Of a stretch of DNA of 64,000 nucleotides, positions 11,800-56,005 are shown one piece after another. The notes beneath the pieces were generated by a model, which made no database searches, was not told where the DNA came from, and saw only the letters and a program-made list of their open reading frames with translations. Every line of letters begins with the position of its first letter. Within the stretch, counting starts at the first letter, position 1. Origin of the DNA: Zingiber officinale (lineage: Eukaryota > Streptophyta > Magnoliopsida > Zingiberales > Zingiberaceae); NCBI RefSeq assembly GCF_018446385.1, contig NC_055989.1:132707004-132771003 (forward strand). Reading direction: 5' to 3'. A program made the position numbers and the translations under genes.

Positions 11800-14700
11800 T
11801 TATCCAGCACGGTACGGCTGGAGGTGGTTTGCGCTCCATGGTCGATCTAGCCGCCGTCCGTCCTCATCTTCTAGGTAATATGCGCTCGATCGGAGCTTCT
11901 CGACGACTTTGAAGGGCCCCGCCCAGGGAGCTGTCATCTTGGTCACATCATCGACCGACTTCACCTTCTTCCATACAAGATCACCGACCTGGAATACTCT
12001 AGAAATTACACGCCTGTTGTAATTCTGCTTCATTCTCTGCCTGTATGCCATCAGCCGGACGGCTGCTTTAGCTCTTGCTTCGTCACCAGGTCCAACTCCA
12101 GCTGCCTTCGCTCGGCATTATCCCCATCATAGCTTTGGATCCGATCGGACTCCACTCCGACCTCAATTGGGACGACCGCTTCGCCTCTGTACACCAAGTG
12201 GAACGGTGTTACCCCCGATCCCTCCTTTGGGGTTGTGCGAATGACCCATAGTACGCCCGACAGCTCGTCCACCCAGCTTCCTCCCATGTGATCGAGTCGA
12301 ACCCGAAGTATTCGCAAGATCTTCCGATTGGCTACTTCGGCTTGACCGTTGCTCTGAGGGTACGCCACGGAAGTGAAGTGTTGTTCGATGTCATATCCTT
12401 TGCACCATTCTCCGAGCTCCTGACCAACAAATTGTCGCCCGTTATCCGAGATGAGCCGACAAGGGATGCCGAACCGACAGATTATATGTTGCCAGATGAA
12501 CTTTTTGACCATCTGCTCGGTTATTTTGGCAAGTGGTTAAGCTTCGACCCACTTGGAGAAATAGTCGACTGCCACTAATAAAAACCTCCGTTGCCCGGTC
12601 GCCATAGGGAAGGGTCCCACTATATCCATACTCCACTGGTCGAACGGGCAGGATACTGTGGACGCCTTCATTTCCTTCGTAGGCCTATGGGAGAAGTTGT
12701 GGTACCTCTGACAAGAAAGGCAGGTAGCGACGGTCCGAGCGGCGTCTTCCTGTAGAGTTGGCCAGAAGTATCCGACCAATAGGATCTTTCTAGCCAAAGA
12801 CCGGTCGCCCGGATGCCTTCCGCAAGATCCTTGGTGTACCTCATGGAGAATGTATTTTGCGTCTTCCAAGCTGACGCACTTTAGCAGCGGTCGGGAGAAT
12901 GCCTTCTTGTAAAGTTGATCCCCGATGAGCGTGAACCGACCGACTCTCCTCCTCAATAGCTGGGCTTCTTCCCGATCGGAAGGCGTGACTTCCGATCGCA
13001 AAAATTCTATTATGGATGTTCTCCAATCTCTCGGAAACGTGAGACCCTCCATCTGGTCGAAGTGCGCCACCAGGGACACTTGTTCGATTGGTTGTTGGAT
13101 GACGACCGACAATATCGAACTGGCGAGCTTTGCTAGCTCATCCGCCGACTGGTTCTCAGCTCGGGGAATCTTCTATATGGCAACTTCGACGAAGTTGGCT
13201 CTGAGCTTTTCGAAGGCCTCCGCGTAGAGCCTGAGCCTCGCGTTGTTTATCTCGAAGGACCCTGAGAGTTGCTGAGCGACCAACTGGGAATCTGAGAATA
13301 GCATCACCCGGCTGGCTCCCACGTGTCGTGCGGCCTGCAGGTCGGCTATGAGGACCTCATACTCTGCTTCATTATTGGTTGCTCGGTAGTCCAGCCGGAC
13401 GGACAGGTGCATCCGCTCTTCTTGAGGGGAAAGTAACAAGATACCAATTCCTCTTCCGAGCCGAGTAGACGATCCGTCTACGAATACTTTCCACATAGCT
13501 TCGGGCTCAGGATTTTGCACCTCGGTCACAAAATCTGCCAAGGACTGCGCCTTAATCGCCGAGCGGGGCTGATACTGAATGTCGAATTCACTTAGCTCTG
13601 TTGTCCACTTGATGAGCCGCCCGGACACTTCTGGATTCAGAAGCACCCTTCCTAGCGGGCTGTTCGTCATCACGATGATTGTATGCGCCAAAAAATAAGG
13701 GCGCAATCTCCGCACGACGAGGATCAAGGCAAAAGCTAATTTCTCGAGACCAGTGTAGCGAGATTTAGCATCCTTTAGAATGTGGCTTAAGAAGTACACG
13801 GACTGCTCTTCGCTGTTTGGCCTTACTAATGCCGAGCCCACAGCATGCTCGGTCGAAGACAAGTAAATGCGGAGCAGCTCTCCTACAACCGGTTTGGCCA
13901 GCACAGGCAAAGAATTGAAATAAGTCTTCAGCTCCTCGAACGCCCGATCGCACTCCTCGTCCCATTGAAACTTGGTAGCTTTACGCAGAATTTTGAAGAA
14001 AGGGAGGCTTCGGTCGGTCGTTCAGGAGATGAATCATAATAGCGCCGTTATCCGACCGGTGAGGCGTTGTACTTCTCGAAGGTTTCTGGGAGGAGGCATA
14101 TCTTGCAATGCTTTCACCTTGCTGGGATTTGCCTCTATGCCCTGTTCGGTCACAATATAACCCAAGAAACGCCCGCCTTTAGCTCTCAACAGGTATTTTT
14201 GGGGGTTCAGCTTGACTCCATACCTTCTAAGTGTTCGGAAGGTTTCCTCTATGTCGGTACAAAGATCAGCCGCTCGGAGTGACTTGATTAGTATATCATC
14301 TACGTATACTTCCAGGTTGCGCCTGATCTGCTCCTGGAATACTTTCTTCATCAGTCGTTGATAGGTAGCCCCCGCGTTCTTGAGTCCGAACGACATCACG
14401 TTATAGCAATAGGTGTCATCCGCAGTAACGAAACTGACCTTCTCTTGGTCTTCTCGGGCGAGCGACACTTGATGGTAGTCCTGATAAGCATCCAACATGC
14501 ATATCAGCTCGCACCCGGTTGTGGAGTCTACTAGTTGATCGATCTGGGCAGAGGGTAGAAATCCTTTGGGAAGGCCTTGTTCAGATCCCGGAAGTCAATG
14601 CAAACTCTCCATTTGTTGTCTGGTTTGGAGACCAACACCACGTTTGCGAGCCAACTCGGGAACTGCACCTCCCTTATGTGGTCGGCCTCCAAGAGCTTCT

Positions 14701-21490: not shown

Positions 21491-21901
21491 TAAGTTATGG
21501 TAGCAGTATTAGAAGGGCATCACCACGCTTACACAACACGATAGAAAGACAGTAAAAAATAATTAGAAAAATAATAGGAGTGAAAAGGAAAATAATAAAA
21601 TCTTTAGGAGGAGAAGGGCTCCGTTAAGAATAATGAAAAAATTAAGTCGTAAAAGTTTTTTTTATTGATTTAAGTTAATTATTGAATTATTTATAAAAGA
21701 TTTTATTTGATTAGTAAATTTTTTTATTTTTTTATTTATAGATATAAAAATAAATAAAATATTCTTTAAAAATAAAATTAGATCAATAAATAAATTAAAA
21801 TATATAAAATAATTATTTTATTTTATTTAAGAAAACACATAGGAAATGTTTTATATTCTCCTATATAATTTTAATTTGACCTTACGAGGGATACTGAAGC
21901 C
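21491..21901. other. AT-rich upstream region of the PPR gene
   Basis: Very AT-rich, with no repeat ends and no coding signal. It presumably contains the promoter and 5' leader of the gene starting at 21902. I could not single out a convincing TATA box among the many A/T runs. Confidence 0.4.
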
Positions 21902-23461
21902 ATGAGGCCTCAATACCTGAAAAGGAAACCCGCCACTCCGACCGCCGCCGCCGCTTCCTCTTCCCTACAGTGGATTTCTCCCCTCCAGTATCTCAAATCC
22001 CCTACTTCTAACCCTTCTCCTACCACCACTCCTCTTCCGCCCCCGACGCCCCCGCCGCCCCCCGAGTCCAGCAGGCGTCGCTCCCGATATATCTCCCACG
22101 CCGACGCTATCCGCCTCATCAACCGCCAGACCGATCCACAGCGCGCCCTCGACCTTTTCAACTCCGCCGCCTCCCAGCCTGGCTTCGCGCACAACCACAC
22201 TACCTACTCTGCCCTCCTCCTCAAGCTCGCCCGCCACCGCCGCTTTGCTGCCATAGACGCCCTCTTCCACCGCATGTCCTTCGAGCCCTGCCGCTTCCAC
22301 GAGCCCATCTTCCTACGCCTCATCCCCCTCCTCTGCCGCGCTTCCCTCCCCGACAAGGCCCTCCACATCTTCCGCTCCACCATCCCCTTACTCGTCCGCT
22401 GCAAACCCTCGCTCAAGGCACTCGCCACCTGCCTCGACAGTCTCGTTGAATCCCAACGCTTCGAACTTGCCCAGGAGCTTCTTTCCGACGCCAGGTCCCG
22501 TTTCTCCATCGTGCCCAACACCTGTGTCTGCAACATCCTCGTCAAGCACCATTGCCGGAGGGGGGACACCACTGCCGCCTTCCGTATCCTTGATGAGATG
22601 AGGACGTCAGAATCGGCAAAGCCCAATCTTATCACCTATTCCACGCTGATGGGCGGGCTGTGCAGAGAGGGCAAGTTGAAAGATGCCTTCGAGCTGTTTG
22701 AGGAAATGATTGACAGAGACAAAATCGTTCCTGATCCATTGACATATAATGTGCTCATTGATGGCTTCTGCAGAAGTGGGCAGGTCGATAGGGCGAGAAA
22801 ACTCTTTGCGTTTATGAGGAACAATGATTGCGAACCGAATATGTACAATTACGCAACTCTAATGAATGGCTACTGCAGGGGAGGCAGAGTGGAGGAAGCA
22901 AAAGAGTTGTTTGTAGAAATGGGGAACATTGGATTGGAGATTGATGCTGTCACATACACAACTTTAATCGGTTGTATTTGCAGAGAGGGGAGAGTTGATG
23001 AAGGGATTGAATTGGTGAAAGAGATGAGAAAGAAAGGGTGCAAAGCTGATGTGGTTACTTACAACGTGGTGCTCAGAGAACTGTGCAAGGTGGAGAAGTT
23101 TCAGGAGGCAATGGGTTTGCTTGAGTGCTTACCGTATGAGGGTTTGAGGCTCAATGTTGCGAGCTATAGGATTGTTTTGAATAGCCTGTTCGCTCAAGGG
23201 GAGATAGAGAAAGCAGTTGGGCTTCTTGGTTTGATGCTAGGAAGGGGATTCATGCCACATTTTGTGACATCCAACAAATTATTACTTCAATTATGTGAGA
23301 TTGGAAGAGTAGCTGATGCAACTATAGCATTATATGGATTGGCAGAAATGGGTTTTATGCCTGAGGTTGCTACATGGGCTAAATTTGTCGAATGTGTGTG
23401 CGGGGAGAGGAAATTTAAGAAGGTTATAGAATTGCTTGATAGCATAATTACAGAACAGTGA
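21902..23461 (+). CDS. P-class pentatricopeptide repeat (PPR) protein, At5g18475-like
   Basis: A single intronless frame of 519 residues. The first 55 or so residues are rich in Arg, Ser, Ala and Pro and nearly free of acidic residues, which suggests an organelle targeting peptide. From about residue 70, 35-residue PPR units follow, with clear repeats such as NTCVCNILVKHHCRRGD, PNLITYSTLMGGLCREGK, PDPLTYNVLIDGFCRSGQ and PNMYNYATLMNGYCRGG. There is no E, E+ or DYW tail, so it is P-class. The order and wording of the repeats resemble my memory of Arabidopsis At5g18475. Such proteins bind organellar RNA and affect stability, splicing or translation; the target is unknown. GC is high in the first 700 bp and falls later, a monocot-like gradient. 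The frame is intact. Confidence 0.93.
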   Translation: MRPQYLKRKPATPTAAAASSSLQWISPLQYLKSPTSNPSPTTTPLPPPTPPPPPESSRRRSRYISHADAIRLINRQTDPQRALDLFNSAASQPGFAHNHTTYSALLLKLARHRRFAAIDALFHRMSFEPCRFHEPIFLRLIPLLCRASLPDKALHIFRSTIPLLVRCKPSLKALATCLDSLVESQRFELAQELLSDARSRFSIVPNTCVCNILVKHHCRRGDTTAAFRILDEMRTSESAKPNLITYSTLMGGLCREGKLKDAFELFEEMIDRDKIVPDPLTYNVLIDGFCRSGQVDRARKLFAFMRNNDCEPNMYNYATLMNGYCRGGRVEEAKELFVEMGNIGLEIDAVTYTTLIGCICREGRVDEGIELVKEMRKKGCKADVVTYNVVLRELCKVEKFQEAMGLLECLPYEGLRLNVASYRIVLNSLFAQGEIEKAVGLLGLMLGRGFMPHFVTSNKLLLQLCEIGRVADATIALYGLAEMGFMPEVATWAKFVECVCGERKFKKVIELLDSIITEQ

Positions 23462-29369: not shown

Positions 29370-30221
29370 TCAGGTAGGTTTGTTCTTACCGAGGGTGTGC
29401 TTGTTGTTGTGCATCCAGACCTTGAGGACATGGCGTTTGATGGAGACCTCGTCGCAGAGCTGCTGGACGGCGGCCTCGTCCTGCTTCTGGATGCGCCACC
29501 CGACGCGCTCCGCGAAAGCGAGCATCTTGTCCTTCTGCTCCTGCGTGAACTTGGTGCGGAACCGCTTCCGGCCGCCGCCGTGGCTTCCCGCTGAAGACGG
29601 CCCCATTCCCATCATCGCCGCCGCGTACGGGTCCTCCATCCCATGCTCCGCCTCCCGGTCCCCGCGCGACGTCGACGCCAGCAGCGCCAGGTGGTGCCTC
29701 TGCGGGGGCGCCGCCGCCATCGCCTGCGGAGGCGCCTGCACTGCCAGCGGCTGTTGGTGGTGGAGATACCCCGGCGCCGCCGTGCGGTAGAACGGCGAGA
29801 ACTGGTGGTGGTAGTATCCAACCGCTCCTCCTCCTCCTGCTCCTCCTCCTCCGCTCCCTGTTTCGCGGCGGTGGAAGTTACGGTGGCAGTTGCAGGCGGC
29901 GCAGCGGAGTGCGTCCAGCGTGCCCTCCTCCCCCGCCGCCAGAAACTCGCCGCACCCGTCCACCGCGTGCCCGCCGATCCCCAACGCGTGGTTCTTCAGA
30001 CACTCCCTGTACCTCCCCCCGCCGCCTCCCGCCTTCCGGCCGCTACTCCCGTTCCCCCGCTCCCCTCCTCCTCCCCCTCCCCCTCCCCCTCCTCCCTCTC
30101 CTCCCCCTCGAGGAGGCGAATTCGGGCTGGGTGCGTCGTAGCTGGAGCCCACCGGCAACCCCATCTCCTCCTCCGTCTCCTCATGCTCGTCAAAATCCAT
30201 CACCTCCACCCCCCTCACCAC
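29370..30221 (-). CDS. ZHD: Zinc-finger homeodomain (ZF-HD) transcription factor
   Basis: An intronless frame of up to 283 residues. Residues 70-120 form the ZF-HD dimerisation zinc finger ([20 protein letters not shown], then [11 protein letters not shown]). A Gly-, His- and Pro-rich middle follows. Residues 218-278 are a homeodomain ([19 protein letters not shown] and recognition helix [10 protein letters not shown]). The protein ends soon after the homeodomain, as is usual. The in-frame second methionine ([16 protein letters not shown], near 30200) fits the start seen in relatives better than the upstream one at 30221. ZHD proteins act in the nucleus as homo- or heterodimers on ATTA-type sites, with roles in floral, leaf and stress development. 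Long Gly and Pro runs reflect GGC/CTC-rich low-complexity DNA. Confidence 0.95.
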
Positions 30222-33200
30222 CTCCTCACCTCACCTCACTTCGATGAGCTCCCTCACTTCATTACCGACCTTAACTCGCCTTGTTTAAGGGGATAAGACC
30301 GAGACGAAGAATAGCACACGCCATCAACCTCTCTCTCTGATGTCGTTATAAACCCCTCTCTCTCTCTCTCTCCGAATTGCATTAATGGAGGAGGGAAGGA
30401 GCTTATTAAGCTCCATCTTTCCTTAATGAACCCACGTCAATGGCAAGTTAAGTAAATTTGACCAGTCTTTTTACAGTTTCACTCTGTCGCTGAAATGACT
30501 GCATCCCTAAAAGCAGAAACCCACAACCAAATTTCATTTTTTTTTAATCCAAATATTCAACTTTCAAATTGAAATCTGAAAAATAAAATCTTAACGGATA
30601 GTTCGAATAGCATGAATTGTATCATATATTGATGGAGCAAGAAATTTCAAATCGAACGGATAAAATATATATGTTTATATTGAAAAGAGATAATTATATT
30701 ATTATCTCTCATTCATCTCTTTTTTACCTTTATTTCATATATTTTTTATACTTAAAAATTAAGAATAGCGGCCATTGTCCTGTCCCTGAATATATTTTAT
30801 TAAAAATTTAGATCTTTATTATATAGGAGTTTATTTTATTTTTTATCATCACATCGTTTTTGAGAGATAAATTTTTCTTTAATTTAATCTCCAAAACCAG
30901 GGACAGACTTCTCCTTAATTTTTGTAGTATAAGAGATATAGGAATAAAAAACATAAGTAGAATGAATGGGAGACAATGACACAGATACCCCTCCCCTCAA
31001 CATTAACATAAACATGCATCTTTCACCTTCAATATAAAATTTAAAAAAAACACACACTCATTTTTGTTTCCTTTCACAAAATACAATGTGGGATAGTAAG
31101 TTTACTCACTATAATCATTTGTTTACCCACTTAACTTCTTATTTTGTCATTGTACTCACTATAATATTCATTTATTTACCGACTTAACTTCTTAATTTTC
31201 ATAATTGTTAATCTCCTTTACAAGCCATATATATTGGCAATTAATGAAAATATTTATTTTTTGCAACAATTATAAAAAATTATTTTTTGTCAGTATGAAA
31301 ATAAATGGGACAAGGAAGGGGATGGTTTCATCACCCTTTGACCAAGTACCACACAACAAGGACCGTTCGTATTTATTTCCATTTTCCCTTTTAGTCCTCC
31401 TAAAAATTCATATTAATTTTTAAAAAAAAACATAACCAATTTGATCTTCCAACAGCTTCCTAATGCACAGTAGAGTGCAAATTAATGTTAATAATTCAAT
31501 TAGTTGGAGTTGAAAACTTGATTCCATTGGCTTCTTCCTCCACCCAACTTAACCTAATTCCGATCAGTTCAAGTTGTTCAAGACAATCGAGGCGATTAGG
31601 TTGCATCGATCGGTTTCGGAAACGCCAATTGGCTCGACAATACGGGACAAACGGATCAGGTTAACTCGGTCAGGTAGATCCGATTGACTGCAGGCATTCA
31701 GTGAGGGTGGTTAATTAGCCACCAAATTCGGGGTTTATCCTATCTATCTAACGTGGCCGGGATGCATGCAGTGAGATATCAAATCTCACTTAAATCGTTG
31801 ATACTCGGAATTTTATTAATTCTTTTTTCATAGGGATTAATGCAATCTTTAGTATAATTTAATAATAATATGTCTAATTAATTAATTAATGGGAGATGGG
31901 TTGAGGCGGTTGTCTCGGGACTTGGGAGCATGTCATACTTCCAAATTACACCAAACATACTAACGAAACCATAATAAGTCTATAAATATATAAATAAAGA
32001 AAAGAAAATTAATAATTGCTCGTAATATATTATGAGTTTCCTACTTCCAAGACTTGTCATTTGTCAAGGACTTGGATACGGTTGCTTTCTTTCCTTTGCC
32101 AAATACTTTAAATTTATTCTTATATTGGGCAATTCAAATTTGGTGATGTGACAATTCAAATTCCGTGTAAAATTCGAGAAATAATAGTATAAAAAAAGAA
32201 AATAGTTTTTTTTCTTCTAGCTAAGTGTCAAATCTTTGATGGGACGCATGATCCATGACTAGATCGAGTATGTCTCTGTATATATTTATAAGCGTAGTCG
32301 AATCGGTACTCATCTAACATATTTATAAGCAATTCGCAACTCGAAATTTAGTGTAGAAATAATTTTATCATTCAACTCGAAATTTAGTGTAGATAATTTT
32401 GTCATTTATAAGCAATTCATAACTCGAAATTTAGTGTAGAAATAATTTTGTCATTCATTATATTTTACGGTGTTGTTCATGCATGAATACACACTTTAAT
32501 ATACATTCGCAAATTAACAATAGAATAGAAGTAACTAAGTTTATAGGTTTTTATTATTATTTATTGATTTTTAATTGGCATTCAATTAATTCTGAGATGA
32601 CTGATGTAGACGATATATTAGTTCAATATTCTTAAATCAATCATCTGCTAAGAAAAATTTATCCATTAATTTAAAAAAATTTGTTTAAGAAATTGAGAAA
32701 ATAATTACTCGGAGGTAAGTGTTTGTATTTTGTTTGTTAAGTTGCTTATGTTCTTCAATATTTTTTTTATTAATTAGATAATAAGTAAATAAAATGGACA
32801 GAAATACAAGACAAGAAAGCTACCTTTGTTCCTTTTCCTTCAAAGAAACAAGACGGGAAAAAAACCATTAACATTTTCTACTCTATCCACTTGCTTTCCT
32901 TCGGCATTTCTTCCTACTTCACTTTCAATCTTTCATAGGAAACACAGCCTTATCATTGATTAAAAATAATGAAAAAATACTCTTAATTCAGAAGAATGTA
33001 GAATAGCAATTATAAATATCATAGCTGAAATTGAATACTCTTATTCAGTGAAAAGTATACTTGTTAATCTCGATGTGGAATGATAATATTGCAGCAAAAA
33101 CACAAAGGAATTGTACTGTGATTGTTTGATGCGACTCCACCCTTTAACTTTGCCGTACCTCCCCTGTCTATTAATTGAAACCAAACACCAACTCCCTCAT

Positions 33201-34638: not shown

Positions 34639-37600
34639 ATGGATGCACCAAACTCCCTACGACAGAGCCTCTTGGGCAAGCACCATCCACTGAGCCGATC
34701 GAACAATAAACATGGCATTTTACAAGCTATCTCTGGGTGCTTGAGAAGGCTTCTTGAAGCAAGTAATTATCACAAGTTCCTGCGAAAATAAATCTTGCTC
34801 CTTGAGTTTTATTTTCTTGTCATGGTTGTTGCCTCATAGTGAACTTTAGTTTGGTCATGGTTTGCTTTGCTGCTAAAAATTCAGGGAAGAATGTGTCTGG
34901 ACCGTCCGAAGCAGAGGAAAGAGTCCGGTCATGGATCTATGCTCTGGCTCAATCTGAAAAGAACCTAACATTTGAATATGTTCATTCTACTGAAAGAGGT
35001 ATGGGGAAAAAACATACCATGCTAGATATAATGGAAAAACTGCTCCCCTAAATGATTCTGTTTTCTGATATATCATAGATATACACATATATGTACACAT
35101 GAGCATAAAGATGAATAAACAAATTGAACTTGTTAGCAGAATAAGATAGCAGCATGTGTGTTTGTGTATTCATTTTGCATCAGTAAAATAACAGGGCGAA
35201 AAAAATATGAATCAGCTGAAGGAAGAGATTCGAGTTTTAGTCCACTTCTAGCAGGTTTTCTGCTGTTAACTAAGCAGACATTCTTTTGTTCAAAGCTTGA
35301 CTTGTTCTCTTCCTTATTTTGTGGTTGCTCTCCAATAAAAGAAAGGAAAAAAGGAATTTCATTCCCAAGCTTACTGTATCTTCTTCAATGGAGAGGGAAG
35401 AAGAGTGATTTAACTCCAAATTGGATCCAGTAAATTTAGATGATTTCTTTTCCTTCAAAAATTTTAGTAGGGTAAACTAGAGAAATGAATTTCTACTCAA
35501 TTTCATCACAGTAACCCCAGATTAGTGTAAATGAAAACATGTAATATAGAAGAAATCAGTACCGTGTTTGATCGCGATGAACTTGTCTGAGTATTATTTG
35601 CCACGTCTATCTGCATATCATTTTTCTGCACAAATCTATCAGAAAAATAGGAGGTTTTAATGAGCAACCAATGAGACTATCATCTTTGATGATCAAGGTA
35701 ATAGTTCTTGAAGTTAAATATGCATGTACCAGGAATTAGATTTGATCCAAATGATCTTCATTGATCAATGACGAACCTTTTACAATTTAGCCAGTTCTGA
35801 ATGATTTTCATTGTATTTACTGGATGATCCCTTAAATGATAACCATTCCATTTCAATGAAGTGAAAAAAGAAACCTGATGAACAGACGCAATGCATATCA
35901 AACCTACAACCACTGCATGTGCCGCCAGAATCATACATTTCGACATCTGGTATCAAATTGTGTAATTCTATTTATGAGTAAATGGTCATTCAGAATGAAT
36001 CTGCACCTATATAAACAGTAATCTTCAAGAGGATAATACACTGCAATTTTGTTTTTTCAATTCCTCAATTTTACAAAGTTATCTAATGAAACACAGAGCT
36101 GAGCTAAAAGTGTATCTATCAGTTTCTTATAAATAACACAATAAAACATAATAAATCACAAGTTATCTCAAGAAAAAAATTAGCAATTTTAAATACCGAA
36201 TGTCAATCCCTATGCAGGCTTGAGCTTCAAGGAAGCAGAAAGTAGACTGAGGGAAGCAGGAAAAAACATCCCTATTGACCATAATTTCTCAGGCTGGTGG
36301 CAGCTCTGGTGCACGGCTTTTATTAACCCATTTAATATGATTCTTGTTGTCATGGCTGCACTTTCATACCTAGCATCTGATAATGCCAACGGAAGCATTA
36401 TGCTCATTCTGGTTTTGACTAGTGTAGGCATCCGATTCCAACAGGTACATAACATAACCTTAGGAAGTATGTCAATATCAATCTCCTAGAGCACTTCATG
36501 GAAGAAAAGCCTGCTGTCATTCATATACTGCATTAATGCTACCAGATTATAGACCAAATAAAAAAGTCGTATGGCAGGACTATAAGAGTTCAAGGGCAGC
36601 CATGCAACTCTCTGAATATTTGAGATCACAAATCAGAGTGCAGAGATGTGCTGGAAGAATCATTCAGAAAGAACTAGTAGTACAAATTGACTACAGAGAC
36701 ATTGTACCAGGTGACATTATCCATTTTAGCCCTGGGGATCTTTTTCCCGGTGATGTAAGACTACTGATATCCAAAGATTTGATTGTAAGGTAATAGGGCA
36801 GATTATTTTTTTTTTCAGGATTTATTTACCCATCAAAGCTCCCACATTACATGATATTTGCCTAATCATTGAACAGTCAGTCCTCATTAACAGGAGAGTC
36901 AGGAACCATGGAGAAAATAGCAGATATCACAGAAGTTAGGAGCACTCCCTTGCTAGAGCTAAAGAATGTATGCTTTATGGTAATCTTTGACAACTCTCTA
37001 CATGTTATTGCATCTTCTAATGCCAAATACTTCTGACTATATGTATTAACAAACAAAAGCAATCCTAGGGAACAAGTGTGGTCTCCGGATGTGGAATTGG
37101 ATTAGTTATATCTACAAGTTCAAGGACATATATGAGTACAATATTTTCCACAGCGTGGAAAGAGAAACGAGGAGATACCTTTGATAATAGTGTTCGGTCT
37201 GTATCATATGTACTCATTTGCCTCATGGTTGTGGTAGTTCCAATAATGGTCCTGTCTGATTATTATGCTTCACATAATTTGGGCAAGAGCATCATCTTTG
37301 GGATCTCTGTAGCAGTAGCACTGACCCCACAAATGTTTCCTCTTATTGTAAATACGAATCTTGCTAAAGGAGCCATTGCAATGGCCAGAGACAGATGTAT
37401 AGTTAAGCGGCTATCTGCCATACAGAACATGGGAGCTATGTAAGTTTGAAATTTCAATGATTCATAAATCCACCTAAATGCACACAAGTCTACAGATGCA
37501 TTGTAGCATGTTAAAGTTTGTTTTCAACATGTTCTACAACTGCTTAATATTGAATATTTATTTTTCAAATAAAAAAAAAAAAAAAAAACAATGATGCAAC

Positions 37601-40600
37601 ACTAAAAAGAGCAAGTTTAGTTTCTTTTCTTCTGTTTGCAAACATTTACTATATAACTATGTGACTCCTATTTGTTTTCTTGAGTGAACTTTTAACCTGC
37701 CTTTCCCGTCTCCACAATATGTTCTTAGTCAATGTTCTTGAACAAATGTAAAGATCAAATAGCATGTCCAACAGGTTGCACAGGCTAAGATTTTTGTGCG
37801 GATATATATTTAGGTTTAGTGAAATGCTATTTTACTGCTGCAAACCTGGTATCAGCATACTAGGCAACTGCTATACAAGTCTTGTGCATTCAGCTGCACA
37901 GGATTAACTCAAAACCAAAAGCAAGCCAATTCAAAGTGCAGAAAGAAGAAAATCTAAAACAGATAGGAAATGCATAACCAACAATAAGTTATTTTTCTGT
38001 ATGTCAATGACATGACAGCTGAAAGAAACAAAGCAATAACCATTTAGATGAAGAAAACAAACATCAACTTATTGACTTTTCCATGCTGTAATGAGCTAAG
38101 TTTCCATTTTACACCATCTGACATACACACATTTCCACCATCAATTTCTTATAGATCTATGGGTCAGAAATTAACTAGTATGTCTTCTTATATATCAAGT
38201 ATCCTTCATGTGGTTTAATACATCATAAAGGGAGAAGGTTTCAATTGCTTGTAATTGTTTCTCAAGATTGTTTGTTATGTATGGATTTCTGTTTTCAACC
38301 AGACACATGAACAGAAGAATGTACATGCATGAAGACGAACTTGAGATGATCATCCTCTATTGTAATATTTGTGCTAGAACTTCACAAGTCACTACTATCG
38401 TCCCATATCACACGACCTTTATCATGTTATAAATTGTTTTAGCAACTAGTACATGTTTTATTTTGTAAGTTATCATGGTGAAATTTGAGAAATAACAGCA
38501 CAGGCATTTACCAAGTGTAGAATTGTCTGTTGAAAAACAGAATATATTATGTATTTATTACGTAAGGTATTATCAGCTATTGACCATTGCTCACTTGAAA
38601 TGTGAAAGATATTAAACTAACTCCACCTCACGATTTTTTGCAGGGATGTTTTGTGCATCGATAAAACTGGAACACTAACAACAGATTGTGCGCTGATGGT
38701 ACATCATTTAAATAGTTTTGGTTTTTCAGATGAAAGGGTACTGAGATTTGCGTTTCTAAATTCCTTCTTCAAAACTGAACTTAAAGGTCCTATAGATGAT
38801 GCAATTCTTGCGTATGCATATATGAATGGCTACAAATTCCAAGTGTCAAAATGGAGAATGATAGAAGAGATTCCATTTGATTTTAGAAGAAGAAGGATGT
38901 CTGTGATCGTTGAGGGAGAATTAAACAGCATAAGGGATCAAAAAGGCTCTTACTTGAACACAGCCAAATACGTCATAACAAAGGGGGCACTTGAAGAAGT
39001 ATTAGGTATCTCTACCTTAATTGAGTACGATGAGAAAGGTGTAACATTGACTTTGACTTCAGAAGAGCGGAAAAGAGTTCTTCAGAAAAGCGAAGAACTG
39101 ACCAATGATGGCTTAAGAGTTTTGGGAGTAGCAATAAAGAGGACAAGCACAGTATGATCTCATCTCTCCTTTCTAGTTGACATATAATTTGTTAGGACAA
39201 CATTTTGAAAAGTTTGACAGAGTGTCAGTTTTTTTGAAACATCCTGGACATATTGTATTAAGCTCAACATTTGGGAAAACTTAAGTTCCTGAGTAACAAG
39301 CTTTGAATGGGTCATAATTAATATTCAATATTCATGATAGTGAAAAAAAGATTGTGATCCACTATCTATAACCATCATGTATCCAATATCATTTTGAAAC
39401 CATTGTTTAGGGTAAGGGAATTTCTCCAACTAACTAATGAGGCGTCATAAAAAAATCAATACACGACCATGTACAATGATATAGTTTTTTCTGTCATTTA
39501 CCAAGCATTTCCATTAAGAATAATAAATCATAAGTTGCCATATACTAGCAGAGTAAGAAACCAAACACTATTGTAGCAGCTTAAGATTTCTCTTCTCCAG
39601 AAGTGGGTGGAAGTCATAAAATCGATAATTTGATAGATTAACCTTATTCATGATTATGATCTGATAATGCCAGGCCCGACCTAAATAAAATGTTGAGGGT
39701 TATGATAGGCATAGATAACTAGTGTCAATATTTGTCGAAACTTATGAATGAGTCATAACTCTAATTGCAGATGACTACAAATGAAGAGAACAGCCATTCA
39801 CTAATAGAATCAGACATGATTTTTCTTGGCCTCATTTCCTTCTTTGATCCACCAAAAGAATCAGCTAAGCAAGCACTCTGGCAACTAGCTGAGAAGGGAG
39901 TAAAAGCAAAAGTGTTAACTGGTGACTCACTTTCTCTAGCCATCAAAATTTGCAAAGAAGTTGGCATCAGAACTACTCACGTGACAACTGGTCCAGACCT
40001 AGATGCTCTTGAAGAAACTGAATTCCATGAGGCTGTCAGAAAAGCCACATTATTGGCCCGTCTTACTCCAACTCAGAAGCTTCGAGTAGTTCAGTCACTG
40101 CAGAGAGTAGGCAAACATGTTGTCGGTTTTTTAGGGGATGGAATAAATGATTCTCTTGCACTGGAAGCTGCAGATGTTGGTATCTCAGTTGATTCCGGAG
40201 CAAGTGTAGCCAAGGACTTTGCTGACATTATACTGCTTGAAAAGGACCTAAATGTTCTTGTCTCTGGAGTCGAACATGGTAGGCTGACATATGGAAATAC
40301 AATGAAATACATAAAACTGTCTTTGATTGCTAATATTGGAAGTGTTGTCTCATTCTTTATAGCAACTATGTTGCTGCAATTTGAGCCACTCACTCCCAGG
40401 CAGCTTCTTACTCAAAATTTTCTGTATACTCTAGGCCAGATAGCAATTCCATGGGACAAGGTAGATGATGGATATGCCATGGTTCCTCAGGGTTTTTCTG
40501 CTAAAGAACTACCAGTTTTCATTATGTGGAATGGCCCAGTTTGTTCAATGTTTGACATTGCCACCTTGTTATTCCTTCGATATTACTATGACGCCAGTGA

Positions 40601-40916
40601 ATATTCAGATGCTGAGTTTGTTCATTCGGCATGGTTTGTTGAAGGCCTCCTTATGCAGACTCTAATCATCCACATGATTAGAACAGAAAAAATTCCCTTT
40701 ATACAAGATACAGCATCTTGGCCAGTGGTTTTGTCAACTTTAACAATTTCTGCTATTGGGATCACTATCCCATATAGTCCAATTGGCAAAGTTATGGGAC
40801 TAAGTAAACTTCCACTATCATATTTTGGTTTCTTAGTTGTGCTTTTTCTTGGATATTTTTCACTTGGTCAGGTTGTCAAGAGGATATATATACATGTATA
40901 CAAACGATGGCTATAA
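34639..40916 (+). CDS. P3B (MgtA-type) P-type ATPase, predicted Mg2+-class cation pump
   Basis: Eight exons join in phase with GT-AG borders: 34639-34762, 34885-34998, 36218-36444, 36578-36789, 36877-36979, 37069-37439, 38644-39151 and 39771-40916. They give 934 residues (E. coli MgtA has about 900). The protein follows MgtA from the N-terminal cytosolic part to the last membrane helix. Landmarks are the actuator loop TGES (231-234), phosphorylation site DKTGT (Asp390), LTGDS, the hinge GDGIND (675-680), and a C-terminal membrane domain with the MgtA-like words HMIRTEKIPFIQ and LPLSYFGFLV. Bacterial relatives import Mg2+ across the plasma membrane; location and substrate in a plant are unknown. 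Departures from MgtA are Gln348 in the M4 motif TPQMFP (Glu there in MgtA), Thr773 in the M6 motif (Asp there), and SL after GDGIND (AP there). The start is the first ATG, and its short exon is the least certain part. The frame is otherwise intact. Confidence 0.9.
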
Positions 40917-42684: not shown

Positions 42685-42853
42685 CAGTTCGGATCCTTTG
42701 TCCCCAAATTTTTCTGTCCCCGTATTTCCTTGTCGATCGGACGGATCAGATTACATCTCAAGGTATCATGACATCCTTAAGATGTAATTTGGTCTGTCCA
42801 ATCGGTAAAGAGACATGGAGACAGAAAAATTTGAGGAAAGAGGATCCGAACTG
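42685..42853. mobile_element. Hairpin MITE, probably Mutator-type
   Basis: Inverted ends begin CAGTTCGGATCC on both sides, and the arms stay complementary over about 70 bp (AAATTTTTCTGTC in one, GACAGAAAAATTT in the other). Flanking direct repeats are GGATTATCG on the left and GGAATTATCG on the right, about 9 bp with one base difference. It carries no coding capacity. Confidence 0.65.
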
Positions 42854-43198
42854 GAATTATCGTGCTTTCTAAATTTATTTGTTAGATGGAATATAAAACT
42901 ACAATGTCTACTTTAAAATTATGAAATTATAAGAACTAGACACGGAGATCGAGAAATTTGAGGAAAGAGGATCCGAACTTGAATTATCGTGCTTACTAAA
43001 TTTATTTGTTAGATGGAATATAAAACTCCAATGTCTACTTTAGAATTATGAAATTATAAGAACTAGACACGAAGACAGAGAAATTTGAGGAAAGAAGATC
43101 CGAACTGGAATTATCGTGCTTTCTAAATTTATTTATTAGATGAAATATAAAACTGCAACGTCTACTTCAGAATTATGAAATTATAAGAACTCGATATT
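42822..43198. repeat. 127-bp tandem repeat, nearly three units, seeded by the end of the MITE
   Basis: GAATTATCGTGCTT begins at 42854, 42981 and 43108, exactly 127 bp apart. Each unit holds the MITE's right end (AAATTTGAGGAAAG then GATCCGAACT) plus host flank (AATTTATTTRTTAGATG, TGTCTACTT, AATTATGAAATTATAAG). Units differ by a few bases each. Confidence 0.9.
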
Positions 43199-46537: not shown

Positions 46538-49500
46538 TTATCGCCTACCTGAGATACTAATGGAGCTCACTTTCATCGGCGTCGCAACCACGAGGGGAGC
46601 TTCGGGAGAGTTGGTCACTGCAAACTTCTCGTGCATGAAGCGACTGTCGACGATGGATTCATCTTTGGGGACGACCTTGTAACAGTAGCAGCTCTTCAGC
46701 CCTTCCTGGTTCTTGTAACATTCATGGTTGCCGTTTTTCACTTGCTGGAAATTCCATATGACACTAAATTTACCGACGGTCGCAACCAGATGCCTCTCTT
46801 GCTTGCCGTTTTCAGTCACCTGTCGAGCAGTGGAACGGAAATATGTCAAACAAATTAGATTGTATGAGCTTGAAATGCTAATGAACAAAATCATATAGTT
46901 CAAATGCCTGGTAAAATTCAAAGTTTTTCTTTATCCAGGAGTTTGATAACCCATCCCATCTTGAGCCACAAAAAATAAGACAAGTATAAGAATGTCGAAG
47001 AACACCACTTGATGAAGTTGAATTCTATTATGGAAAATCATATATACTACAAACTTATAAATGAGCTCTAATAATGATTAGAAAATAGAACATTTCACAA
47101 TTAATTGCATTCCAGAGTTCAGGCTAATATATGAGTGTCATTAACTTGCTATTGTGCAGACTAATGAACGTTCTATAAAAAAAACAACTCCAATTTTCAC
47201 AGGAACGAATTCAAAAGATTGAACAGCCAGCAACTAGCAAATTACTCTTCTTTGACTAGCTAAAGTTTGAAACTAAGCCAACAGCAAAAACTGACTTAGT
47301 ATCGTAAACTATTTAGGTCAATTGAAACAATTTTAACCAAGAGAACTTACATAATGTTGACAAGTGCTTCAGCTTTTTTGTTTGAAAACAGACTTAACAC
47401 GCACAGATAAAAAAAAATACATCAACTCATTAACTGGAGGCAGATAAAGAAGGGCAATTTACATATCGGACCCCCATTTAATTAATTTTTACCAAATCAC
47501 GCCTGATTAATTGGTTTTTGGTAAACCGTGCTCCCAGCTATTTTTTCCTTTTAAACCTTTAATTTAAAAAACCCTTCCAAAATTTACTATCACTGATTTC
47601 CCAAATTGTATGATTTTTATTCAAAATTGGCTTGCTTGAGTCACTTTGCACAAAAAATGTTTGAGTTTGGAGCTTGTGATATCTAATGCATAAATATTCG
47701 CAAGAATATCCATGCAAACTTATTTCAAAGTCAGCTTGCAGCATGCTTTTCACTCAAACTTATTTGAGTTCATTTTGACAAAATAATCATTTTGGGGCTC
47801 TCAAATCCTAAAGTGCGTAAACATAAAGAGTTTACCTCAATTATGTTACCCCTACTAATTGGAATAAAAGAAATAGCAAATATGTTCCGTGCAAAATGGG
47901 AATGGATTGAGGTTATGAACTTATATAAACCTGGAATCAACTTGATCATAAGATTATAGGTTCATTAAATACCACACAAGACAGGAGTAAGCTTATGTAC
48001 ATTCTTATTATGAAAGTTGATCATTTGAGTGTATTTAAATAGATACTATGCACTATATTCACTTCTTTTGGGGCTTCTAGTGAATTAAGAAAGTTTGATT
48101 GTACATTATTTTTGATGTATATAAGGCATAATCTAGATAATTCAAATTGAACCAATTGGATGTTTGACCCAGGTATGATAGGAACAAGATTGATCCACGG
48201 GCTGATTTGATGTGATTTCAACTCAAATTTGAGTTGTTTAAGTTCTTTTATACCTTAAAGTATTACTTTTGAATCTCACATCCTAATGAAGTATTAAGAA
48301 TAAGAATTAAAGCGCTTCCATAGGCATGTGGTTTAGGCTGAGAGTGAAACAGCAAAAAATTTGAATAGTGTGATTTAGTATACGACAATTAAGGAATATT
48401 ATTGGTTAAAAAAAACAATTAGAGGAGTGCGTTCAAGTAAATTGTCCATAAAGAATAAAAATAAGAACAAGAGGGAAAAGATAGTAGCACATAAATAGGT
48501 CAATTTTAGTTGAGATATCTCAGCAGAAGTGAATTCTATTTCATGGTTATCAATTACCATAAGAAAGAGGAAGTTCTTTGTTCAAACACTAATATCAATG
48601 GAAATGTTATCTATGGTTGTAAACATTATTCCGCAGAATAATAAAAAAATAAAATTTACTATCCATGAAAAAACTAAGATATCACCTACTTCTTCCGAAT
48701 CCAAATCCAAAGATAAATATATCATGAACTATCAATTATTTTTTAATGAAAACTCAACCCTAAACTAGATTGAAAAACTAAACCTGGGGACATGAACTAC
48801 CGAGGAAACTAGATAAACAAGGGCAAAACTTATACTTGATCTTTTTGTCTCAAAATGCAGGAAAGATAAGGTTAATCTGAATCTAAATAAAGTTGGTCAA
48901 TGACAAATAACAACAATATTGTAAGCCCATAGAATACCAGCAATCCAAAAGAACAGACATATTGAATGCAATAAGTAGAAAAAAAATTTCAACTCAATAT
49001 TGAGAAGATTGGGTTAAACAATTTCACAATTAAAAATTAAACTTTCACATTAATGAAAGATCTCTTGAGAAATCTAGAGACTCAAATATAAAGCCACGGG
49101 CAAAGATATGCAAAATAAATGCCTTTTAGGCTTTTCTACAAAGTTTCATAGGAAAATACTAAACTCGAAAGTTATGGTTCACAAGGATCACTTTAGAAGA
49201 TTGATTTCAGTATCTGTTTTTGCCAAAAAAAAAAAAAGCTGGAAAATAAACTAAGATCATTACTAAGAATGTGTCAATAAATAAGGCAACATAGACACTT
49301 TGGTTAATTTACAAATTTAGATACTATATATCATTTGAGAACTTATGTTGCATTATCCAAACTTTCAATGAGACATGAGAACACAAAATGAAAAAATAGC
49401 ACCAATCAGCATTTATATCATTCAAATCAATTACTGAGTAGGGCAAAATAAGAACAAAAAGAAAAAAGAAAAATGCAGTGGAATTTTGAGTAAAGGAAAG

Positions 49501-51155
49501 AAGGATGAAGTCTAGCATACCCATGAGAACTGTCCTCCATGGAATTTATTGTCTTTACCAGCCAGATGAGAATCCAGTGGAGTAAGCTTCAACAATCTTG
49601 GAGCAGCAATCCTGTGTCCCATTCTCCCACTAAAACCAGTCTTCTCTTTTCCATCTTTGTCTTTGAAGACTGTGCTTATGAGGATTAAATACGTGTCTGT
49701 TGTGCCCAATATCCATTTCCCATCAAAAGTGACATCCACATGAGTGATTGGCGAGCCAAGGCCCGGAAATGCCGTCTTTGCCATTCTCATAGAAGTCCTT
49801 GAATAAAGTCGTATCTTCCCGTCCACAGACCCGACAACAATAGAACCATCTCCTGTTGACGCGAAGCATTGGAAATTTGTTCCCCTAGAGAACTGATGTC
49901 CTTGTGTCCATTCTAGAACTGGCGATTCCTTGGCATTTGCAAGGTTCTGAACTATACCTCTGCGGTCCCTCATATCCCAACGGCATAGCCTATTATCATC
50001 CAACCCCAAGAAGGTTGACTCTGATGGATCTAACTGAGCTCCCTTGCTGTCATTCGTAATGTCTCTCATAGTAATATCAGTTCCATCCTTCTCAAATTTC
50101 CACTCTGTCACAACTTTTCCTGTCTCAATATCCAGATGATGAACCCCAGTTGCATGTGGCTTACCAGCTTCTACAGGGCTCATCAGTAACATATTAGTTT
50201 CTGCTCTCATCAAAAGTGCCTTCTTGGGGGTTGAATATGCAACAGCTCGACCCCCATTACCCGAAATCTTCACAGACACACCCTTGCCATGGACCCCATG
50301 GCTAAAGTTCCTGAGGACCTGAATCCCTGAATTGCTCACCAAAAAACTATTGTCGAGAGCGCCAAGGGCGAGGCTTTGTATCCCTCCTTCATCAGCCTCC
50401 TCCTCGAACTCCTCCAGCATGTCTTGTTTCATCCTGGTTGGAGTAGCCAACCGACCAGGACTCTTTTCGAAGCTTTCGTCTGCATCTGCCCAAATACTGT
50501 CATCTTCTTCCTCCGGTTGTGCCCACGCCGTAAAATCCTTCCCAAAAATCTTGACTTTATTATCCTGGTTCGACTCAAATCCATAAGTGTTCTCAAAGAG
50601 GCAGCTTTGGAACCGATTCTGAAACTCCCGGTAACTCTCTGGAGAGGGGAACTTGATCGCCCAGACCCCATCTGCCACGAAGTCAACGCGGCGCTGGCCA
50701 GGAAAGGACTTGAGCTGCAAGTTTGGGTCGATCCTGGAGCGGACCTTGGAGCCGATTTGCAGTAACCAAGGCGAGGAAGGACTCTCCTCGCCATCAGATT
50801 CATCAGATCCTGAGTCGCGAACGAATTCGTAGGATGCGAATTTGTCGGAGACGACCCACCGTGCGGCGGGGGAGTTGCCGCCGATGTGAAGGTAGAGCTT
50901 GACCGCGTTTCTGGAATTAGGCTTCCGCGAGGAGGACGGGGAGGGTGAAAGGGACGAATTAGAATACTTGAGCTTGAGAGCCTGGAGCTTACGATCGACC
51001 TCGTCGATGGATGAGGCTGGAGTTAGGGTTCCTCCAGATCGAGGCCCCGCTTCATCTCGATCTTGTCGCTCCCCTTCATTCTCGTTTCCTTCTTCTTCTT
51101 CCTCTTCCTCGGAATCTGAGAGCTCCAAGTCCTCGCGGCTTTGAGAGCCTCCCAT
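46538..51155 (-). CDS. DEM: DEM/CYPRO4-type protein with Vid27 domain
   Basis: Two exons, 51155-49521 and 46819-46538 on the minus strand, join in phase 0 and give 638 residues. The intron is 2.7 kb. The start at 51155 (MGGSQSRED) fits the family; upstream in-frame residues have no ATG. MGGSQS fits an N-myristoylation signal. An acidic run follows, then a PH-like region (about 85-200) and a C-terminal Vid27 beta-propeller (about 270-600) with [16 protein letters not shown] and [20 protein letters not shown]. The exon junction falls inside the conserved end, between KFHGGQFSW and [17 protein letters not shown]. Tomato DEM is needed for embryo and meristem organisation, and Arabidopsis DEM1/DEM2 are homologues. 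The biochemical role is poorly known. The long intron is AT-rich with no obvious element ends. Confidence 0.93.
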
Positions 51156-52109
51156 GGCGAATTGGCGATCGAGCAAGTGAGCCGAGAACAGAATTGGTGA
51201 CGAACAGAATGGGCTTTGATCGGGAGCCTAATGTTAACTGCCTCTTGCCTCTTTCAAACGGTTACCTTACCGACGGTAAGTAGACTCGCCTTACGTGCGG
51301 ACCAGTTTTCAGTCGTTTACGTTGCAATCCAACCAGTGCAGCGATGTCATCGTCCAGTGAAATTTCTGGTGAGTCAGTGGGTAACAAATAATAAAACTTG
51401 GGATAATCTTGATCAAACACGTAATCTAATTTGGATCTTTCCAAAACACGCCTCCACCCTTTTTAACATATATATAATAAAGTATTATTTTAATTAGCAA
51501 TAAAGCGTATAACTAAATTATTACGAAAATTATAATTTTAAAACAATTAAATATAGCGAATCGGAATATATAAAAATTAAATTAAATTTAAATACGCGAG
51601 CCCAAAACATCCGCCCATTTCTGACGTCTGCCCATCGTCATAACTGCTGCAAGGGATTCGCCAACCGATGTGGGACTCGCGCAGCGAGGCCACTGCAGAC
51701 CGGGTACAGTATCCGAGTATATATATTTGCGTAGCCACAGGATCATTGAAAATACAGAGTGGAAGCTGGGCATCCAACTGTCTCCTTTCCCATTCCGACG
51801 CCCGTCTCCACTGTTTTCACTTCATATCACGACTCACGAGATGGAGCTAATAATTCTACAACAGATCGTGATTGAACTGCGAGTTGAATCGGCGATCCCT
51901 AATCCTTCCTCCGAGTGGAGGCGACTCCGCCTCCGTCCTGTCTCCTGCCTCTCTGTCTGCTTCTGGATCGAAGTCGGGAATCCAATTGATCCCTCTTTGT
52001 CTGTTCCTGTGGCCGGATCAGGCTAAAGATCCTGCCTCGGTGTCTCCGGAACCCCACGAGAAGTGAAAAGCTACTTTTTGTTTTCTCCTGCCATTTATTT
52101 GAGTGATCC
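51156..52109. promoter_or_regulatory. Shared upstream region of the DEM (-) and CNGC (+) genes
   Basis: The two start codons face away from each other across 954 bp, so both promoters and 5' leaders must lie here unless a leader intron exists. Small frames inside show no family features. No TATA box is convincing for DEM; ATATATATT near 51.72 kb is a possible one for CNGC. Confidence 0.4.
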
Positions 52110-55100
52110 ATGTTCGGATCCAGGAGGTTCGACGATGGGATGGAGGTCAGGAAGGAGAGGACTGTAAGGTCAGTTAACGTGCTTTCTTTTTGGCGCTTGA
52201 TTTGGGGAGTTTCCAGCAGTAATACGAACCTGATTTTGATTTGATCCTTTAATTACCTGGACGCATCATAGTCAATCATCTACAGATTGAGGATACATTC
52301 CGTTTAAATCAGCATCCAGAAGCTACTTTTTGGGTGTTGTTTATATTTCGGTGTTTGAGTTCATACTAGCTTCATGATTGCATTTATTTGATTCGCAAAT
52401 ACTGTGTAGTTAACTTTTAGTTGTGTTAGACTGTTAATTTTTGGGGGGGACTTCTTCTTATTTGGTGCACAGGATCTATACCGATGAAAAGCAAAATCAA
52501 GCTAAAACTACACTCCAAGGCTTGAAGTCGGGTGGGTATACCTCAAATGGAATTGGAAAAGTCGGCACCTGGAAGTCCATAGCTTTCGCTGAGGACCATA
52601 AGCCATGGAGGACACACATTCTTGATCCGGGAAGCGACACTGTATTGAAATGGAATCGTGTTTTTCTCATTTCATGCTTGCTTGCACTGTTTATAGATCC
52701 ATTGTACTTCTATTTGCCGAAGGTCAAAAAGGGCGATAATACCATATGTATCATGATGGACGACCATGTTAGCATTCCTGTCACAATTTTTAGGACACTT
52801 GCTGACCTTTTGTACATAGCACATATTGTGGTGAAATTTAGAACTGCATATGTTGCTCCAAGCTCAAGAGTCTTTGGCCGAGGGGAGCTTGTTATGGACC
52901 CTAAGATGATTGCTAGAAGATATTTGAGATCAGACTTCTTTATAGATCTCGCAGCTGCACTCCCTCTACCGCAGGTAAGCCTCACATTTCTTTTGAAATT
53001 GATTTTGTAAGATATGGTTTATCTTACATTCCATCACTCTGGTGGGTTTTATCCTTTCCTTTCCTCGTCAAAGATACGGTTTGTTATCCTCATAGACTAC
53101 TTATAATTTTGATTAAACTGTAGAGAAAACCAGATTGATATGATCCTTTACTCGTAATTTGTTTTACTTACAATCCCAGAACTCAGTTATCCATTACATG
53201 TTTGTGTCCGCCAACCTTGTTTGCAATTGAACACTTTTCTCAAAAGGAAATTGTCCTGACTTCCACATTTTATGCCTATCTAATCTAGTTCTTTTTATTG
53301 TAACAATTATGAGAACCATCTTATTTTATTTCAGCTGCTCATTTGGTCGGCAGTAAGGAACTCAAGAGTTGAACATAACAATAATGCTCTCGCGCTAATT
53401 GTCCTAGTACAGTATATACCAAGGCTTTATCTCATATTTCCTTTAAGTTATCAAATTATTAAAGCTGATGGTGTTGTCACAAAGACTGCTTGGGCTGGTG
53501 CTGCATATAATCTACTTCTCTACATGATCGCTAGTCACGTAAGTAACTGGGTATATTTTTCTGTTAATCAGTCGTGTGCAATATTTTGGATGTAATCCTT
53601 AATTTTCTACTTGCTTCAGTTTAGATGTGTACTTTTTTCTTTTAAAATTGGCAAATGGTTTCTAATCGTGAACTTATAGATCCACATTACAGGTTCTAGG
53701 AGCTTCATGGTATCTACTATCTGTCGAAAGGCAGACTACATGTTGGCGATCAGAATGCAAAAATGAAAATGGAACAACTGGGCCACTATGCAGACCTAAA
53801 TATTTAAATTGTGCTCAATTAGGTCATCCAGATCACGAGGCATGGGCTCAGGCTACTCAGGTGTTTGGCAATTGCGATGCTAATAACCCCAACATCACTT
53901 TCAACTATGGCATTTTCCAAAATGCATTAACCAATGAAGCCCTCTCAACGGAGTTCATCAAGAAATACTTCTATTGCCTTTGGTGGGGTTTGCAGAACCT
54001 GAGGTATGTTGAGTAGCTTCAGCAATAGATAATCTTTCCCTGCCCATATTGAGTGTCGTGGTGAAACATATTGATCTTATTATATTTCTGGAGTCTTTCT
54101 GTTATCCTTTCATATGCATATATTTATATTTCTTTTGTGCTTTCAGTTCGTATGGCCAGACTTTGACAACAAGCACTTTCATTGGAGAAACATTGTTTGC
54201 TATACTAATTGCTATTCTTGGCTTGGTCTTGTTTGCGCACTTGATTGGAAACATGCAGGTACCATCTTAAGGCTCTTTCTTCTGTTCCTTTATTTTCAAT
54301 CATCATATTGTATGAGATGTAACCAATGGTTGGTTCCATTTGTTTATAGGCTCGCCTCTTTCAAAGCCACTAATTACAGATGTGTTAGCTTAACAAGTAC
54401 TCACTAAGTTGAGTTTTCATTTACGGACATACATGCAGTTTTTTTAGTATGCTTTGATGTAAAACTTAGTAGGGAAAGGAGAAGTAGCAGAGGAGGTGGC
54501 AAGTATGAGAAGTAGATAGTGAGATAATACAACAATAGTTGGGGCAATGGTGGATTTATTCCAAAATGATACTTAAACCAAGTTTAGTCTCGGTTGTTAG
54601 GATTGTTAGCTAGTATAACTTTGATAAATAGTTTGGGTGAAGAATAGCAAAGATCAAGAGCACACATAGAAGAAAGAAGAAAAAAAATCACTGATTCAAC
54701 TGCTTCAAATGCACATCTTGTCTGATTGCGAATGGTCTGGTCTGGTCTGATCTTTGTAACTCTGCTTAGAAGTTCCAATGCACCCTTAGATGTCTAGGCT
54801 AATGTTTGGACTAGTTGATCTCTTCTTCGATTTTGAATTTGTACTATTTTATATAGAAATCTAATATGCTATGATTATATTTTCTCTGTCAGCTGTCTAG
54901 ATATTTCTATGCACTGCATGGAGCAATTTTTTCTACTAGGATGTTTTAATCAATCAAACTCTTTTCTCGTAACATAGACCTACCTGCAATCAATCACCGT
55001 GAGACTGGAAGAATGGAGACTAAAACGCAGAGACACAGAAGAGTGGATGAGGCATCGGCAACTTCCTCATGATCTGCAAGAAAGGGTTCGACGCTTTGTT

Positions 55101-56005
55101 CAATACAAGTGGCTTGCTACTCGTGGAGTGGACGAGGAATCCATTTTGCGGGCTTTACCTGCCGACCTTCGGCGAGATATTCAACGCCACTTGTGTTTAG
55201 ACCTCGTTCGACGGGTACAAAGCTACATTTTCGTTTCCTCTCGTTTCCCAAGTTCATAACTGACCATGCCAGTTTGGATTCGGAATTGCAGGTTCCTTTC
55301 TTCTCGCAGATGGACGATCAACTTCTAGATGCAATTTGCGAGCGTCTGGTGTCTTCACTGAGCACAGAAGGCACGTTCATCGTTCGGGAGGGAGACCCTG
55401 TGACTGAAATGCTTTTCATCATTCGGGGGCGATTAGAGAGCTCGACGACCAACGGTGGGCGGACGGGCTTCTTTAATACGATCACACTGAGGCCAGGTGA
55501 TTTCTGCGGCGAAGAACTGCTTTCCTGGGCGCTTCTTCCGAAATCCATGGCGAACTTGCCTTCCTCCACTCGGACCGTAAGAGCGCTCGTCGAAGTCGAG
55601 GCCTTCGCGCTGCGGGCAGAGGACCTCAAGTTCGTCGCGAATCAGTTCAGGCGGCTCCACAGCCGGAAGTTGCAGCACACATTCCGCTTCTATTCGCACC
55701 ATTGGAGGACATGGGCCGCTTGCTTCATCCAGGCAGCTTGGCATCGCTACAAGAGGCGGAAGATGGCAAGGGATCTGAGCATGAAGGAGTCATTCAACTC
55801 GCGTACAGACGAATCGGGTCAGGAGGAAGACGAGAGCAATTCGTACTCAAAGAGTTCATCTCGGCCCGAGCAAAATCTCGTCGGAGTCACACTTCACGCG
55901 TCCAAGTTTGCTGCCGCGATCAGGAAGGGTGCCCAGAAGATCAAAGGCATGCCCAATTTACAGAAGCCGAGCGAGCCCGATTTCTCTTCTGAATCTTACG
56001 ATTGA
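52110..56005 (+). CDS. CNGC: Cyclic nucleotide-gated ion channel, group III (CNGC14/17/18-like)
   Basis: Seven exons join in phase: 52110-52168, 52473-52974, 53335-53538, 53693-54003, 54147-54258, 54978-55214 and 55292-56005. They give 712 residues, normal for the family. Six transmembrane segments lie at about 85-395, with the pore helix and filter at SSYGQTLTTSTF (start of exon 5) and the S6 end GLVLFAHLIGNMQ. The C-linker is LEEWRLKRRDTEEWMRHRQL. The cyclic-nucleotide-binding domain (about 480-600) has the cassette RPGDFCGEELLSWAL and hinge AFALRAEDLKFVANQFRRL. An IQ motif (AACFIQAAWHRYKRR) near 616-633 should bind calmodulin. CNGCs are plasma-membrane Ca2+-permeable channels; group III members act in root, root-hair and pollen-tube growth and hormone signalling. 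The frame is intact. The filter triad is GQT, where many plant CNGCs have GQN. Confidence 0.95.

Follow-up and report, generated by a model that had tools for sequence, protein, structure and literature searches.

PH1 is a P3B-ATPase of the tonoplast. In petunia petals and in the fruit of Citrus it binds PH5, a proton pump of the P3A class (PMC6391481), and stimulates pumping by it (PMC6391481, PMC10654040, PMC8546024). Petunia PH1 is cited as having no proton transport of its own (PMC4758953, PMC8546024), the membrane arginine of P3A pumps is described as missing from both PH1 and MgtA (PMC4758953), and a ratio of 0.5 H+ per ATP, versus 1.0, has been proposed for the PH1-PH5 pump (review PMC8546024), a value that fits PH1 as a partner that uses ATP without moving a proton itself. 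Homologs of PH1 and PH5 are described as widely conserved across flowering plants (PMC6391481), the pair is also treated in the review PMC10654040, and independent losses of PH1 are reported from many angiosperms (PMC8546024). The bacterial relative is MgtA, in which seven ion residues have been named in E. coli numbering (E331, S705, N709, D738, S776, D780 and S813); complementation by E. coli MgtA is reported to be prevented by E331A and by D780A, while D738A gives partial complementation with mild impairment (PMC10925321). The review PMC10654040 asks if Mg2+ might be a substrate of plant P3B pumps.

In the window, by which we mean the whole stretch of 64,000 nucleotides of Zingiber officinale DNA that was analysed, re-derivation of each splice junction from the sequence gave an intact eight-exon gene at positions 34639-40916 of the plus strand, with seven GT-AG introns. 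The exons join in phase throughout, and the spliced 2805-nt frame has no stop before its final codon, giving a product of 934 residues. Exon 1 (34639-34762, plus strand, as are the following exons) starts with an ATG at 34639 and encodes an N-terminal tail near-identical to the N-terminus of the Zingiber officinale protein P0001, and exon 2 was placed at 34885-34998 by splice re-derivation. Homology with MgtA puts the first membrane segments in exon 3 (36218-36444), part of the actuator domain is likewise placed by homology in exon 4 (36578-36789), and the TGES loop (residues 231-234) is encoded by exon 5 (36877-36979). Exon 6 (37069-37439) carries membrane segments 3-4 with LTPQMFP, in which Gln348 stands where MgtA has Glu331; exon 7 (38644-39151) carries DKTGT (390-394, Asp390 being the phosphorylation site) and the nucleotide-binding domain. 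Exon 8 (39771-40916) contributes TGDS (603-606), GDGIND (675-680), membrane segments 5-10 and the stop codon, together with the residues aligned to MgtA ion positions, namely A740, S744, T773, C811, D815 and M848. The original prediction, made by eye, had called eight in-phase exons for an intact 934-residue protein with TGES, DKTGT, TGDS and GDGIND. Its coordinates proved exact, all four motifs were found at re-derivation, and the model is borne out because the annotated Zingiber officinale protein P0001 matches throughout, with an equal length of 934, end-to-end alignment and differences at 8 of 934 residues (99% identity).

The predicted product contains the P3B motif set TGE, DKTGT, TGD and GDGxND. 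P-type ATPase motifs are common to P3B pumps and to P3A H+-ATPases of the PH5 type, but the window protein scored 324.4 bits against NCBIfam TIGR01647 (P3A H+-ATPase), under the curated cut-off of 615.5, and P3A membership was rejected on this score. Against NCBIfam TIGR01524 (P3B, Mg-type) it reached 875 bits over residues 62-933, with a curated cut-off of 610.75. Among solved structures, those of bacterial MgtA come closest, and E. coli MgtA (8uy7) aligns with its motifs and membrane segments over ginger residues 77-930 (E 9.2e-199). By profile score and structural match, the window protein is a P3B P-type ATPase, as had been proposed from the sequence. An AlphaFold2 model of P0001 built from 19 rows was poor (mean pLDDT 41.4, pTM 0.28) and was left out of the interpretation. 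Sources differ on the class of apple Ma10, which is given as P3B in the 2023 review PMC10654040 and as P3A in the paper describing it (PMC6381788).

Of the 7275 matches to a protein search, 120 were listed, and these with the window protein form a plant set of 121 rows. The rows represent clusters at 90% identity and so do not count as independent events; two of them, P0001 and the window protein, are near-copies. An organism is shown for 110 of the 120 listed matches, and judged by their names all of these are flowering plants; one further name is cut off (P0059) and nine matches are unnamed. The listed matches come from palms, banana, pineapple, magnoliids, grape, oak, apple, cotton and others, with identities of 80% for Musa, 70-72% for Elaeis, Phoenix and Cocos and 64% for Petunia hybrida (P0113), and no gymnosperm, moss, alga or fungus occurs among the named organisms of the 120 listed matches out of 7275. 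The petunia entry (A0A023J869), itself labelled 'Magnesium-transporting ATPase, P-type 1', is presumably PH1. It has 942 residues to the 934 of ginger, the 64% identity extends over 96%, and its catalytic motifs are the same; its ion residues are replaced as in ginger, with LTPQMLP and an Asn at the D738 position. Ginger differs by Thr773 at the D738 position, which occurs only in two ginger rows among the 121, and by Phe350 in LTPQMFP, which is found in 10 of 121 plant rows. Nothing sets the ginger protein apart in kind from the PH1 family, and the gene is one more ortholog of an already known plant family. Reportedly, Li et al. 2016 (New Phytologist) recorded PH1 across seed plants, in a single moss and in some fungi and bacteria, and discussed horizontal transfer. 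The suggestion that a plant P3B pump is a novelty or peculiar to this lineage does not stand, because PH1 has been described in petunia and Citrus and is stated to be widely conserved among flowering plants; the original prediction had itself named a gene already widespread and characterised in land plants as its refutation. Absence from Arabidopsis, on which the original prediction leaned, would, if real, fit the independent angiosperm losses described in PMC8546024.

The original prediction had also raised old horizontal transfer or ancient retention of a bacterial-type pump, and a gain from bacteria within the Zingiber lineage, or contamination, can be weighed against the surroundings of the gene and its phylogenetic position. 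Pfam identified a PPR gene (21875-23458, plus strand) and a gene for a ZF-HD protein (dimerisation region; 29373-30230, minus strand) on one side, and on the other a VID27/DUF7135 gene (49515-51227, with a part at 46541-46930 below the cut-off; minus strand) and cyclic-nucleotide-gated channel-like pieces (52438-53007 and 55073-56002, plus strand; cNMP_binding above the cut-off and Ion_trans just below). Pfam also marked retroelement pieces, with a CCHC zinc knuckle at 6945-8603 and a reverse transcriptase RNase H at 13176-14021 (both minus strand) and a copia-type gag, below the cut-off, at 62087-62941 (plus strand), all farther from the PH1 gene than the flanking plant genes are. The window further holds two tandem arrays, one at 10892-11677 with a 64-base unit in 12.3 copies and one, lying some 2 kb past the downstream end of PH1, at 42811-43191 with 3.0 copies of a 127-base unit.

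A quick tree was built from 17 of the 121 plant rows and the 79 bacterial rows described below, with SH-aLRT support only, unrooted and with no outgroup. All 17 plant rows lie on one side of a branch with an SH-aLRT of 100 and all 79 bacterial rows on the other, so that the window protein groups with the petunia protein and apart from bacterial P3B, although the opposition of two groups across a single branch is unsurprising by itself in an outgroup-free tree. Ginger adjoins Musa, and seven of the eight monocot rows fall in one starred group, with Anthurium (P0104) outside it at an unresolved plant base. The tree carries warnings for the meeting of long branches (L058 with the plants) and for unusual composition in 12 rows, including plant row P0118. 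Given this tree and the matches across monocots, magnoliids and eudicots, the gene seems to have been passed down within the flowering plants. In the scan, the top bacterial match is only 43% identical in its best segment and the plant branch is long, which makes an old origin outside plants possible; with a long, unrooted branch leading to the bacteria, the tree fits old transfer and old retention alike. By contrast, a gain from bacteria in the Zingiber lineage itself, or contamination, has a negligible probability in our judgement, because orthologs are listed in monocots, magnoliids and eudicots, ginger sits beside Musa with most monocot rows grouped, and the gene has seven introns and plant genes on each side. 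Recent horizontal transfer and contamination were rejected on these grounds. The claim of an intact plant nuclear gene free of contamination consequently stands, with seven GT-AG introns, plant neighbours and an annotated ginger match, while nothing indicates a recent transfer by which this lineage would have gained a bacterial-type pump, its orthologs being spread across flowering plants.

The positions at which cryo-EM places Mg2+ in MgtA (PMC10925321, PMC13174805) were compared between the 121 plant rows and 79 bacterial rows. The latter are a non-random sample, being the best 80 of at least 560 loci obtained with plant-derived peptide patterns, less one row (L012) in which no open frame met the filter. 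The ligands given in PMC13174805 were placed by sequence motif, in a manner consistent with the E. coli numbering of PMC10925321; for Asp361 and Glu330 of PMC13174805, a hand count on the alignment found no single offset fitting the 9zlk chain. In counts per row, S813 was scored as kept when S or T was present. All seven ion residues are kept in 76 of 79 bacterial rows and six in the other 3, whereas exactly one of the seven is kept in 119 of 121 plant rows, none in one plant and two in one. The window protein keeps one of seven, D780, and thus differs from E. coli MgtA in being without E331, S705, N709, D738, S776 and S813, as well as in being encoded by a spliced gene.

The acidic positions are replaced throughout the plant set. 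At E331, 78 of 79 bacterial rows have Glu, while all 119 ungapped plant rows have Q or N (gaps in P0006 and P0099). At D738, Asp stands in 77 of 79 bacterial rows but in none of the 121 plant rows, which read S (70), N (47), T (2), I (1) or C (1), so that an acid occurs at either position in 0 of 121 plant rows. The same holds for N709 (N in 79/79 bacteria, 0/121 plants), for S705, which is S in 79/79 bacteria and A in 120/121 plants (A740 in ginger), for S776, which is S in 79/79 bacteria and C in 117/120 ungapped plants (C811), and for S813, which is S or T in 79/79 bacteria and M in 118/121 plants (M848). D780 is the exception, being kept in 79/79 bacteria and in 120/120 ungapped plants (Asp815 in ginger), and three further ion-path residues, N706, Q741 and Q814, are kept in 121/121 plant rows. 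S821, a ligand according to PMC13174805, is G in 121/121 plants, and the 79 bacteria are divided between G (65) and S (14); it is uninformative and stands outside the set of seven. The catalytic residues are maintained, with the phosphorylated Asp kept in 120/120 ungapped plant rows, both Asp of GDGxND in 121/121 and the Glu of TGE in 120/121 (exception P0101). In 19 of 121 plant rows the TGES loop reads TGEF instead (query residue 234). The compared plant proteins thus appear to have kept the ATPase engine and to have lost or rebuilt the Mg2+ site, and the term Mg2+-class in the original prediction holds for family membership and fails for the Mg2+-binding residues, which are largely replaced.

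We compared this loss with the background of bacterially conserved positions. Conservation of 95% or more among the bacterial rows is found in 232 columns. The plant rows retain 160 of these at a level of 90% or more, whereas only 1 of the 6 core ligands within this set is kept in plants. Fisher one-sided p for the core ligands was 0.012 when all other columns served as the comparison, 0.037 with polar columns and 0.054 with membrane columns whose borders were set by hand, and 12 of the 18 polar membrane columns in the conserved set are kept in plants. The published ion-path residues in the set are kept in 5 of 13 cases (p 0.019). With so few sites, these values suggest a modest excess of ligand loss over the background.

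One explanation of the family relationship is that PH1 is a true Mg2+ pump of the vacuolar membrane, moving Mg2+ back into the cytosol in the way that MgtA brings it into the bacterial cell. Membership in the MgtA family speaks for it, as do the ion-path residues of MgtA that are retained (D780, N706, Q741 and Q814), and these residues leave room for some bound ion. However, 119 of 121 plant rows have only one of the seven MgtA ion residues, E331A by itself prevents MgtA complementation (PMC10925321), and Mg2+ transport across the tonoplast makes little sense according to the review PMC10654040; we regard such a pump as very improbable. The loss of D738 alone would not abolish transport, given that D738A is only mildly impaired (PMC10925321). 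Since ginger and the remaining flowering-plant proteins of the comparison have replaced most of the membrane residues that serve Mg2+ in MgtA, the PH1 proteins of angiosperms probably do not import Mg2+, whatever their database names suggest.

Alternatively, PH1 could pump another substrate, for example a monovalent ion or H+, using Asp815 (MgtA D780) and with PH5 as its partner. The replacement residues are conserved among plants (A740 in 120/121, C811 in 117/120, M848 in 118/121, and Q348 at the E331 position in 113/119 ungapped rows), which looks like a rebuilt site rather than decay, and the catalytic motifs are intact. The D738 position is less fixed among plants than the other replaced sites (S 70, N 47). 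By contrast, the lack of own proton transport cited for petunia PH1 (PMC4758953, PMC8546024) and the absence of the P3A membrane arginine from PH1 and MgtA (PMC4758953) weigh against a pump for another substrate, and we consider it unlikely, if less so than a Mg2+ pump.

On its gene model, P3B profile and kinship to the petunia protein, the gene is very probably the Zingiber PH1 ortholog; by analogy with petunia and Citrus and from its residue pattern, its product would act as partner of a PH5-type pump at the vacuolar membrane and not as a Mg2+ importer. In those plants, PH1 at the tonoplast, with no known transport of its own, binds PH5 and raises its pumping, by which vacuoles become very acidic; the ginger protein probably has the same role, cycling through phosphorylation of Asp390 as the partner of a PH5-type pump. 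For flowering-plant PH1 as a whole, we somewhat favour an ATP-burning ATPase whose Mg2+ site is lost or rebuilt (without E331, D738, S705, N709, S776 and S813) and which keeps D780, the one ligand by which the MgtA clade is distinguished from the SERCA clade. It would serve as the activating partner in a complex of two pumps, or would move another substrate through the rebuilt site.

In the literature searched, which left Li et al. 2016 and Faraco et al. 2014 (Cell Reports) outside it and was covered in part, no statement on replaced Mg2+ residues in plant PH1 was found, and the residue pattern is not claimed as new. The listed plant proteins bear the database name 'magnesium-transporting ATPase, P-type 1', while most of the Mg2+ residues are absent from their sequences, and the recent MgtA structures make the Mg2+ question testable for plant P3B pumps. 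If our reading of flowering-plant PH1 is true, the conserved TM6 Asp that the 2023 review ascribes to P3B ATPases would be a feature of the bacterial members that flowering plants lack. The residue pattern represents a useful lead on what plant P3B pumps do.
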